This document shows positions 9,668 through 43,140 of a stretch of DNA of 50,461 bases, piece after piece; position 1 is the first letter of the stretch, and the number at the start of each line of letters is the position of its first letter. The stretch is from assembly GCA_913009695.1 (NCBI GenBank), contig CAJVWV010000006.1, positions 1 through 50,461 on the forward strand. The letters run 5' to 3'. Origin of the DNA: an uncultured bacterium (GTDB lineage: Bacteria; Patescibacteriota; Patescibacteriia; Patescibacteriales; SZUA-104). The notes beneath the pieces are model-generated. The model worked only from the letters and a program-made list of their open reading frames with translations, ran no database searches and had not been told where the DNA came from. A program made the position numbers and the translations under genes.

Positions 9668-9698
9668 TTGACAAATTATTAAGATATGATAATATATT
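9668..9698 (+). promoter_or_regulatory. Promoter for the T-box transcript
   Basis: A perfect TTGACA at 9668-9673 is followed by an A+T-rich -10 candidate (GATAAT/TAATAT around 9688-9698). It is placed just before the structured leader. The exact -10 is uncertain. Confidence 0.6.
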
Positions 9699-9721
9699 CT
9701 TAGTTATTTAAAACTACAAAA

Positions 9722-10022
9722 CCCATAACTTATGTCCCCGTATTCGGGGATTGGGCATAGGTTAGCCGCAAGGCAGGGTGATTTCTGCTACTACCCGCGC
9801 ATAGTGCGGGGCGAGGTGGAAATCCGGCATCCTCCGTAATCATAGGATAATCAATGTCTTCCGCCGTTTGGCGGAGTAAGAGTTGATGAGTGGAACAAAG
9901 GTCGCTTTCCATAGCGGTTTTTTTGTTTTAAAAGGGTGGTACCACGTGTAGTCAAATTTATTAAGACTTCTCGTCCCTTTATCTGTATTTTATATATGGA
10001 TAAAGAGATGGGAAGTTTTTTG
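9722..10022 (+). promoter_or_regulatory. T-box riboswitch leader with intrinsic terminator
   Basis: AAAGGGTGGTACCACG (9931-9946) matches the T-box consensus AGGGTGGNACCGCG. Its 5' AAAGGG can pair with CCCTTT of CGTCCCTTT (9972-9980) to form the antiterminator. The alternative terminator is CTTCTCGTCCCTTTATC pairing with GATAAAGAGATGGGAAG (9967-10015), followed by TTTTTT. Upstream (9724-9925) are several stems, including CCGCC/GGCGG and GAGG/CCTC. The variable base in TGGT predicts a tRNA with discriminator A, which argues against Trp, Cys, Gly and Ser. I could not place the specifier codon, so the sensed amino acid is unknown. The only gene downstream is the 42-residue zinc-knuckle gene. Confidence 0.78.
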
Positions 10023-10077
10023 TTTCCCAAATTGATCATTAAAACTAAAAATAAATAAAAGTATAAAAGGAGAAAAA

Positions 10078-10206
10078 ATGCCTGACAAAACAAAAGTAAA
10101 AAAAGAAAAATGCGGAAAATGCGGAGCAGAACTTGAATTTATATCCCAACCAGGATGGGGCGTTCCAAAAAAGAAAGGATGTCCAAATGGTTGCCCGCAA
10201 AAATAA
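10078..10206 (+). CDS. 42-residue zinc-knuckle-like protein under T-box control
   Basis: The peptide starts with a lysine-rich segment (MPDKTKVKKEK), then CGKCG, a hydrophobic ELEFIS stretch, PGWGVPKKK and CPNGCP. The four cysteines in a C-x2-C...C-x3-C arrangement suggest one structural zinc site. The ATG has a strong Shine-Dalgarno (AAAGGAG, 6 bases away), rare in this contig. It is the sole gene between the T-box terminator and the terminator at 10222-10258. I do not recognise the family. In Bacillus subtilis the T-box-controlled rtpA gene also encodes a small zinc protein (anti-TRAP), but no sequence similarity is visible, so that is only an analogy. Confidence 0.75.
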   Translation: MPDKTKVKKEKCGKCGAELEFISQPGWGVPKKKGCPNGCPQK

Positions 10207-10221
10207 ACCCTCAAACACAAA

Positions 10222-10258
10222 AGCCGTCCCGATATTTATATCAGTACGGCTCTTTTTT
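10222..10258 (+). terminator. Rho-independent terminator
   Basis: AGCCGT (10222-10227) pairs with ACGGCT (10246-10251), followed by CTTTTTTATTTT. It closes the zinc-knuckle transcript before the convergent GlyRS gene. Confidence 0.85.
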
Positions 10259-10270
10259 ATTTTAAAAATT

Positions 10271-11662
10271 TTATTTTTCTAATTTCTCTTTTAAATAATC
10301 TTTTAATCCTTCTATTTTTATTCTGTCTTGCTTCATTGTATCCCTGTCCCTTACTGTAACATCGCCGTTATCCAAGCTGTCAAAATCAATCGTTAAACAG
10401 AAAGGCGTTCCAATTTCATCCTGTCGCCTATACCTTTTTCCAATATTTCCATTATCGTCAAATTCGCACATAAATTCCCCTTTTAAATTATCATAAACCT
10501 CACGCGCTTTTTTAACTAAGTCCGGTTTATTTTTAAGTAATGGAAATACAGCAACTTTAATCGGCGCTAAATTTTTAGGGAATTTCATAACTACTCTTAT
10601 TTCTTTATCTACTTTTTCTTCCATATATGCTTCAGTAATTACAGCCAAGAAAGTTCGGTCAACGCCGGCGGAAGTTTCCACAACGTGCGGAATATATTTT
10701 TCATTTGTTATCGGATCACGGTAGCTCAAATCTTCTCCCGAACATTTTGTGTGCTGAGTTAAGTCATAATCTCCTCGGGCGTGAATTCCTTCAAGCTCCT
10801 GAAAACCGAACGGAAAATTATATTCAATATCCCAAGCAGCCTTCGCATAAAAAACTAAATTCTCATGCTCGTGCCATTTTAAATTTTTTTCTTTAATGCC
10901 TAAATCAATATAATACTGCCAGCGCCTCTTTTTCCACTCTTCATACATTTTCATTTCCTCGTCAGGACGGACAAACATCTGCATTTCCATTTGTTCAAAT
11001 TCGCGTTTTCTAAAAATAAACTGACGCGCCGTAATTTCGTTCCGGAAAGCTTTTCCGATCTGCGCTATTCCAAAAGGAACCCGCACTCTAGATGAATCTA
11101 AAACATTCTTAAAATTTATATAAATACCTTGGCAAGTTTCCCCGCGAAGATAAACAGGAGACTTATCCCAATCTCCGGTAAAATTACCAAGATTTGATTT
11201 AACTAAAAGATTAAAACTTTTTGCCGGAGCAAAATCGCTTTTTCCGCACTTCGGGCATTTTATTTTTTTCTTATTATCCACCAATAACTTATTAATTTTT
11301 TCCTCGCTCATCTTTTCATCAGCAAAAATACCAGCTTCCTCAAGAATATGATCAACCCTGCTTCTCGTATGGCACTTTCGGCATTCAGAAAGAGGATCAG
11401 AAAATCCGCCAACATGTCCCGACGCTTCCCAAACCTTCGGATGCATAAAAATACTGGAATCAATTCCAACTATATTTTCATTTCCCTGAACCATCGCTTT
11501 CCACCAAACATCTTTTATATTATTTGCAAGCTCTACTCCGTATGTTCCATAATCATAAACTGCCGCGAATCCTCCGTAAATTTCCGAAGAAGGAAACACA
11601 AAACCCCGCCTCTTACATAAAGAAACGATTTTTTCCATTAAATTATTATCTTGTTTATTCAT
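10271..11662 (-). CDS. glyQS: Glycyl-tRNA synthetase (dimeric GlyQS type)
   Basis: 463 residues, the single-chain class II glycyl-tRNA synthetase rather than the alpha/beta form. Motif 1-2 region: GFVFPSSEIYGGFAAVYDYG at the N-terminus. Zinc-binding Cys pairs lie at CRKCHTRS (about 92) and CPKCGKSDF (about 137). Motif 2 contains FRNEITARQFIFRKREFEQME (about 205-225, in two pieces) and motif 3 contains the SAGVDRTFLAV run. The C-terminal anticodon-binding domain begins near LAPIKVAVFPLL. It charges tRNA-Gly. The start is the first Met; no Shine-Dalgarno is visible. The ArgRS gene is 24 bases upstream on the same strand, so the two may be co-transcribed. Confidence 0.95.
   Translation of the reverse strand: MNKQDNNLMEKIVSLCKRRGFVFPSSEIYGGFAAVYDYGTYGVELANNIKDVWWKAMVQGNENIVGIDSSIFMHPKVWEASGHVGGFSDPLSECRKCHTRSRVDHILEEAGIFADEKMSEEKINKLLVDNKKKIKCPKCGKSDFAPAKSFNLLVKSNLGNFTGDWDKSPVYLRGETCQGIYINFKNVLDSSRVRVPFGIAQIGKAFRNEITARQFIFRKREFEQMEMQMFVRPDEEMKMYEEWKKRRWQYYIDLGIKEKNLKWHEHENLVFYAKAAWDIEYNFPFGFQELEGIHARGDYDLTQHTKCSGEDLSYRDPITNEKYIPHVVETSAGVDRTFLAVITEAYMEEKVDKEIRVVMKFPKNLAPIKVAVFPLLKNKPDLVKKAREVYDNLKGEFMCEFDDNGNIGKRYRRQDEIGTPFCLTIDFDSLDNGDVTVRDRDTMKQDRIKIEGLKDYLKEKLEK

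Positions 11663-39865: not shown

Positions 39866-43140
<3,275 letters not shown>

Follow-up and report, generated by a model that had tools for sequence, protein, structure and literature searches.

Why would a T-box leader stand in front of a gene for a protein of only 42 residues? The question is raised by positions 9668 to 10258 of a 50,461-nucleotide (nt) stretch of DNA (contig CAJVWV010000006.1 of assembly GCA_913009695.1; hereafter, the window) from an uncultured bacterium of the Patescibacteriota, where a T-box leader is followed by a single small gene whose product carries four cysteines. T-boxes usually govern synthetases, biosynthetic enzymes or transporters, and anti-TRAP is, to our knowledge, the one small-protein case. 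We favor, at a probability of about 0.6, the reading that a transcriptional T-box, predicted to be specific for the tryptophan tRNA (tRNA-Trp), controls here a gene that stands alone and encodes a small, basic protein of Cys4 zinc-ribbon type, a candidate member of a family of tryptophan (Trp) starvation effectors. The pair had been noticed in a sequence-only reading of this DNA, whose observation is confirmed as real and whose interpretation, a starvation effector by analogy with anti-TRAP, is partly supported.

Recurrence of the pair and a second Trp sensor

The leader-gene pair was sought in relatives among 144 T-box matches, 133 of which were examined; with at least 300 nt of downstream sequence required, these gave 38 Trp-type leaders and 94 others (56 Thr, 17 Asp, 4 Gly, and 17 unclassed). 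In what follows, G numbers denote genomes (G000 being that of the window) and L numbers denote loci. A small open reading frame (ORF) of 35–80 codons with a Cys-knuckle and a ribosome-binding site followed 18 of the 38 Trp-type leaders and none of the other 94, a contrast that the Fisher p value (5e-12) serves only to describe, because the genomes are related and the other leaders mostly precede thrS. The antisense control yielded no such ORF in 128 stretches. One leader (G070:C36) was assigned to the Trp group by hand, as trpS follows it, and the descriptor alone gives 17/37 vs. 1/95; another (G074:C70), with 144 nt downstream, was left out of the count, and a different contig that likely continues it (L300) holds a T-box core and a Cys4 protein with a GWG motif. 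In the taxonomic family of the window, the sole Trp-type T-box match found per genome leads to a small Cys gene.

By eye, a hairpin with a T-run lies close behind the small gene in eight of nine loci inspected (the window, L181, L187, L203, L171, L176, L180, and L230), the ninth (L215) having no clear T-run; the transcript of L203 and that of L181 carry a further short ORF ahead of the small gene. Elsewhere the small gene is clustered with trpB and/or trpS (G007, G010, G029, G033, G035, G040, G041, G069, and G070). The arrangement that the sequence-only reading had named as telling against its own proposal, i.e., a leader ahead of a synthetase without the small ORF, is indeed found in some relatives (e.g., G081, with trpS and a small ORF lacking Cys); in other relatives the small ORF lies between the same leader and trpS, or alone, so these cases do not refute the reading.

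The same protein family was also found under a different kind of control. Profile A2, made from seven members, was searched at E 0.001 against the order (111 genomes) and the class (380 genomes), and it recovered seven further small members outside the seed set, a count from which a seed copy in G266 and long-frame matches of 362–748 residues (G246, G397, and G253) had been dropped. Six of these seven have a Trp device upstream, namely one Trp-type T-box (G360) and five putative leader-peptide attenuators. The latter comprise G005, which has no T-box and in which the leader peptide MIINQTKINLCQKSAWWQITVFHERLVFCAG (with WW) is followed by a terminator, G305 with WPW, and G132, G275, and G257 with WWW, where trpS lies downstream of the small gene. 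For comparison, WW occurs in 85 of the 11,414 short ATG ORFs of the examined loci, attenuators included. All five attenuators have a terminator (−12.7 to −22.7 kcal/mol), and in three of them the pairing of the antiterminator surpasses every one of 300 shuffles. Trp T-boxes and Trp-rich leader peptides upstream of members thus make two unrelated Trp sensors for one family, and the small gene of the pair sought in relatives recurs under both. Among weaker matches in the order (E 0.003 to 0.05), five were inspected: that of G074 lies behind a T-box core, and for those of G024, G048, G014, and G062 no T-box core or WW was found upstream, two of them resembling ribosomal protein L32 by eye.

Attenuation through a Trp-rich leader peptide is known from enterobacterial trpL. 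The five relatives resemble it in having a peptide with two to three Trp codons and a terminator ahead of the controlled gene; they differ in that this gene encodes a small Cys4 protein and in that an antiterminator is clear in only three of five, and the window itself has no such device. Beside the G005 attenuator, on the reverse strand of L299 from 2629, another leader peptide (MGKIIHTTNFYFYWFYFTLKQRLVFCAVNNI) comes with a terminator-like hairpin; together they resemble an attenuator for aromatic amino acids, placed ahead of an unknown gene.

The leader and its predicted tRNA

In the window leader, the T-box core GGG-UGGU-ACCACG occupies 9934–9946, and CCCUUU (9975–9980) can either pair with AAAGGG (9931–9936) in the antiterminator or join the intrinsic terminator. 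The fold of 9700–10030 reaches −121 kcal/mol (z −7.25), and none of 100 shuffles was as low, so that the core, antiterminator, and strong terminator described at the outset were borne out. A check against the T-box family RF00230 was more divided: an Rfam scan at the gathering threshold did not report RF00230 for the leader, whereas a search at an E-value threshold aligned all 219 model positions (E 8.7e-6, 801 bases searched) with 34.1 bits, far under the gathering cut-off of 93 bits, which is a score convention and not a structural feature. Genome-wide, RF00230 had two matches in the window's genome, the window leader being the better (E 2.4e-6) and the other preceding an apparent thrS, a usual T-box target. 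The search also took in 145 genomes from the order and class of the window. Of these, 95 had a match at E 0.001 and only 6 a match above the cut-off; the Rfam threshold therefore misses most such matches, which suggests that short-Stem-I T-boxes are widespread in this group and go largely unnoticed.

Strong covariation among related leaders completes this check. A strict descriptor (UGGG plus basal and apical helices) selected 59 distinct leaders among the loci examined, 50 of them non-redundant, and 39 of these form alignment A1, the 11 omitted being mostly longer. Over the whole structure, 96.2% of cells are paired, compared to 76.1% when shuffled and no more than 49.7% when slid; changes on both sides are seen in 25 of the 30 pairs (0/500 shuffles as high). 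The UGGG and helices 2 and 3 are partly given in A1 because the descriptor selected them, and the support for the basal and apical helices of Stem I needs corresponding caution. P1, Stem II, and Stem IIA/B were outside the descriptor, so covariation there is free of selection, and both-side changes were found in 4/4, 6/9, and 4/4 pairs, respectively, with 100% of Stem IIA/B cells paired. Judged by its bulge, mutually exclusive folds, specifier, Stem II, and Stem IIA/B, the window leader is a T-box by sequence and comparison. It shares with RF00230 the specifier, Stem II, Stem IIA/B, Stem III, UGGN bulge, antiterminator, and terminator, but its Stem I is short and lacks the long distal part, the UGG sits in a one-sided bulge beside the basal helix, and the target gene is unusual. 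T-box anatomy and short forms of Stem I are described in parts of PMC7778990 and PMC7583486.

Which tRNA would such a leader read? Placement of the specifier codon, which the sequence-only reading had left to a later fold, yielded UGG, a putative Trp codon. A pattern using Stem II only, run over the genome collection, returned 53 loci, and a script found UGGG beside a 5-bp basal helix within 230 nt upstream in 50 of them (UGGG is lacking within 150 nt in L195 and L198, and in L226 it is present but has no such helix); of 77 leaders for Thr, Asp, or Gly, 22 also satisfied this loose rule, and the motif alone is therefore weak and only suggestive. The assignment to Trp is carried mainly by three things: the genes found downstream, the match to the tRNA, and the attenuators. 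Such leaders stand ahead of trpE (L056) and trpD (L102), as named by NCBIfam with trpE_most and trpD somewhat under their cut-offs, TrpB-type genes in G010 and G033 (TIGR01415, above cut-off), and trpS in G010 and G029 (PF00579), with further trpS cases identified by sequence; the ligand is therefore most likely tRNA-Trp. The window's genome encodes a tRNA-Trp(CCA) at G000:C5:5388–5458 that matches the UGG specifier. By eye, 21 of 22 thrS, aspS, and glyS leaders show the expected specifier in a short hairpin loop, i.e., ACC in 8/9 thrS, GAC in 4/9 and AAC in 5/9 aspS, and GGC in 4/4 glyS leaders. The AAC of those aspS leaders would fit one enzyme charging both Asp and Asn tRNA.

The discriminator base turned out differently from the A that had been predicted from the base pairing. 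G73 is present in the window genome's own tRNA-Trp and in all 10 tRNA-Trp genes read from relatives (the search pattern missed 6 of 16 genomes, including the window's, whose gene came from a separate search), and the UGGU of the window would therefore pair by a U.G wobble. Among the Trp-type leaders, 23 have U as the variable bulge base and 15 have C, with one unread, and C fits only G.

The small protein, its possible role, and rival explanations

The sole gene before the next terminator is indeed the 42-residue C-x2-C/C-x3-C ORF, and that terminator makes it monocistronic; a T-box ahead of a non-synthetase, stand-alone small Cys4 gene is thus what the window holds. The protein has a net charge of +6 and ends in CPQK. 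All four cysteines are invariant across 13 aligned sequences (window included, the G230 member omitted), and among the 23 small proteins listed, some of them looser relatives, 22 have a positive net charge. A motif of the type G-W/F-G is common in the family, with Phe replacing Trp in some members, and an aromatic side chain therefore likely matters there, rather than the codon. No family above cut-off was found for the small proteins in Pfam (11 scanned) or NCBIfam (10 scanned), and profile A2 against PDB sequences gave 18 matches up to E 1, generic zinc fingers and ribbons with Aart the best (E 1e-4). The Cys4 pattern seen earlier stands, but for the name given to it, zinc knuckle, we would substitute zinc ribbon, with zinc binding a prediction from the cysteine spacing. 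LysW, another small Cys4 zinc ribbon, has a weak Pfam match to the window protein (PF21344, E 0.02), and many relatives of that protein share with it a Trp-Gly near the C-terminus. Membership was rejected, as PF21344 scores 15 bits vs. a Pfam cut-off of 27; LysW carries its substrate on a C-terminal Glu, which the window protein lacks.

In the mechanism that we propose, uncharged tRNA-Trp, whose binding we infer, would pair through its anticodon CCA with the specifier UGG and through its GCCA end with the UGGU bulge; the antiterminator would then form and the small gene be transcribed, and transcription would otherwise end at the leader terminator. The product may be a starvation effector that adjusts Trp use, probably by binding RNA, the ribosome, or tryptophanyl-tRNA synthetase (TrpRS), partners suggested by its basic charge and zinc-ribbon pattern. 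In Parcubacteria, this protein family, often adjoining trpS, would be kept under Trp-starvation control by either a Trp T-box or Trp-rich leader-peptide attenuators. To the wider proposal we give even odds: that an undescribed family of small, basic zinc-ribbon proteins with the G-W/F-G motif is the dedicated Trp-starvation output in Parcubacteria, switched by whichever Trp sensor is present and acting, in auxotrophs without TRAP or trp genes, either on translation itself, through the ribosome, tRNA-Trp, or TrpRS, or on Trp supply.

The analogy with anti-TRAP holds for the input and not for the output. Anti-TRAP (rtpA/yczA of Bacillus subtilis) is described in part of PMC11255114 as a T-box-controlled small zinc protein with a further, tRNA-dependent control by ribosome stalling, and a passage of PMC2494555 lists it among former hypothetical proteins under T-box control. 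Both systems place a Trp T-box over a small protein (a zinc protein in B. subtilis, a Cys4 protein with predicted zinc binding here), and the stalling control there has a counterpart in the Trp-codon leader peptides of relatives here; the difference is that T-box and attenuator alternate between genomes here and are not layered in one operon. TRAP (PF02081) was found in none of the 111 genomes of the order, the window's included, with B. subtilis detected as the positive control, and trpE in none of 18 genomes, the window's again included. No TrpB-type match was found in 12 of these 18, among them the window's, some of the genomes being incomplete and the class-level family members recovered with profile A2 lying outside these searches. 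Since TRAP and trpE were not found, the likeness to anti-TRAP is confined to the input, and the product is unlikely to act by freeing a trp operon from TRAP. The cell from which the window comes seems unable to make Trp.

Other explanations of the pair were weighed against a starvation effector. The small protein might serve TrpRS or TrpB as an accessory subunit or chaperone, produced along with its enzyme and without a separate role, as the leader-led clusters with trpB and/or trpS in nine genomes and the trpS genes downstream in G132, G275, and G257 would allow; we consider this unlikely, since in eight of nine loci, the window among them, the small gene has its own close terminator and no recognised Trp enzyme follows, and since no T-box core was found in the examined flank of trpS in G000 and in G001 and G002 of its taxonomic family (only about 190 nt in G001). 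A true homologue of anti-TRAP, to which the combination of a Trp T-box and a small zinc-type protein as presented in part of PMC11255114 might point, is scarcely credible given the TRAP and trpE results and no anti-TRAP chain among the 18 PDB matches (E ≤1). It is improbable that the small ORF is the precursor of a ribosomally synthesized and post-translationally modified peptide, altered at Trp or Cys by a radical S-adenosylmethionine (SAM) enzyme under Trp starvation. A radical SAM gene does follow the small Cys gene in G002 (L054) and, by eye and as a truncated gene, in L206; L191 has a Trp T-box directly ahead of such a gene, and peptide maturases are among the weak matches of the L054 protein; the best NCBIfam match of that protein, however, is of heme d1 type and far under cut-off (60.5 vs. 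500 bits), none of these genes was seen beside the window gene or in the other clusters inspected, and the four invariant cysteines have zinc-ribbon spacing.

Still less probable is a decoy, i.e., an ORF without protein function that arose by chance or serves as a second-level leader peptide of Trp codons. Of the 23 listed members, 22 have between one and three Trp codons, often close to the end; yet the window has no downstream gene to regulate, Phe takes the place of Trp in some G-W/F-G motifs, and the Cys pattern is kept across genera. The 213-nt coding sequences of G084 and G073 also differ at a single, third-codon position, a comparison of little power. That the T-box reads another tRNA, with UGG only structural, we hold to be very improbable: tyrS and (by eye) leucine-dehydrogenase-like genes also occur behind this leader type, and non-Trp leaders can satisfy the UGGG-helix rule, as stated above, but trpE, trpD, trpB, and trpS lie behind it elsewhere, the Thr, Asp, and Gly leaders carry specifiers of their own, and Trp attenuators guard the same protein family.

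A Trp-starvation effector under a tRNA-Trp T-box thus remains our preferred reading, and several results weigh against it. By the filter, whose Cys spacing was widened after a first look (the stricter version gives 13/38 vs. 0/94), a small Cys ORF is missing behind 20 of the 38 leaders of Trp type. The RF00230 score is low, a hairpin is inserted in the loop of Stem II, the specifier motif recurs in non-Trp leaders, and the window leader depends on a U.G pair with G73. Among attenuators, the antiterminator pairing does not beat the shuffles in L312 (224/300) and does so only weakly in L315 (29/300), and for the G230 member (L311), omitted from alignment A4, no Trp device was found upstream. Of the 23 listed small proteins, 22 themselves need Trp. 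Two AlphaFold models of the window protein, from 7 and 13 sequences, were poor, with a predicted local distance difference test score (pLDDT) of 64.

In the open-licence literature, we found no report of T-boxes in Patescibacteria, the Candidate Phyla Radiation, or Parcubacteria and none of Trp attenuation in the Candidate Phyla Radiation; in the accessible portions of that literature on Patescibacteria riboswitches, the T-box does not occur. The pairing points to an undescribed Trp-starvation response in bacteria with tiny genomes, in which a small protein family unlike anti-TRAP is placed under two unrelated RNA sensors, and supplies, for a phylum in which gene regulation has received little study, a concrete candidate for a new starvation effector that can be put to the test.

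Features of the locus and other genes behind Trp-type leaders

The window's genome comprises 939 kb in 43 contigs and is about 80% complete. Along 9668–10258, a promoter-like site, the T-box leader, its terminator, the single small gene, and a second terminator follow one another.

Features of the T-box leader and the small gene, in window coordinates
Feature	Position	Strand	Basis
Promoter-like TTGACA (9668–9673), 16-nt spacer, TAATAT (9690–9695)	9668–9695	+	read from sequence only
P1 helix, ACCC 9721–9724 with GGGU 9776–9779, around Stem I	9721–9779	+	alignment A1, outside leader selection
Stem I: basal helix 9729–9735/9755–9761, apical hairpin 9736–9749	9729–9761	+	A1, RNAalifold
Putative specifier UGG (Trp), bulge on 3' side of Stem I	9752–9754	+	sequence, comparison of leaders
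Stem II, 9780–9788 with 9816–9824, hairpin inserted in loop	9780–9824	+	A1
Stem IIA/B element, UCCU 9830–9833 with AGGA 9844–9847	9830–9847	+	A1
Stem III hairpin, limits approximate	9891–9929	+	fold, RF00230 alignment
Antiterminator, T-box bulge UGGU 9937–9940	9931–9980	+	RF00230 alignment
Intrinsic terminator, mutually exclusive with antiterminator	9966–10021	+	fold, sequence
Ribosome-binding site AAAGGAG	10066–10072	+	sequence
42-residue Cys4 zinc-ribbon-type protein, PGWG motif	10078–10206	+	ORF
Terminator 3' of small gene	10222–10258	+	sequence

The convergent neighbor 3' of the small gene encodes glycyl-tRNA synthetase (10271–11662), and a convergent glyS beside the small gene is common to the window and G013 (L171). 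Behind the small Cys protein and terminator of L176, the next gene resembles, by eye, a ribosome hibernation factor. Trp-type leaders also stand ahead of other genes. In L218, L201, and L223, the T-box is followed by a carboxylate-amine-ligase-like gene (GCS2 match of 22.6 vs. 21 bits in L218; by eye in L201 and L223) and then by a gene resembling deacylases of the succinylglutamate desuccinylase type, a possible Trp-linked ligase/hydrolase pair. Four further leaders (L145, L069, L167, and L017) precede a protein of about 265 residues with an STVCPDYPH motif, which had no Pfam or NCBIfam match at thresholds when that of L145 was scanned and which is followed in two loci by a histidine phosphatase-like gene. 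In L182 and L213, a UGG leader is followed by a small Cys5 protein and then by tyrS (NCBIfam tyrS) on the same strand, and the UGG leaders of L199, L210, and L119 lie ahead of genes that by eye are leucine-dehydrogenase-like or aminotransferase-like. Elsewhere in the window, the 23S rRNA gene (39866–43140) carries long inserts relative to the Rfam consensus.
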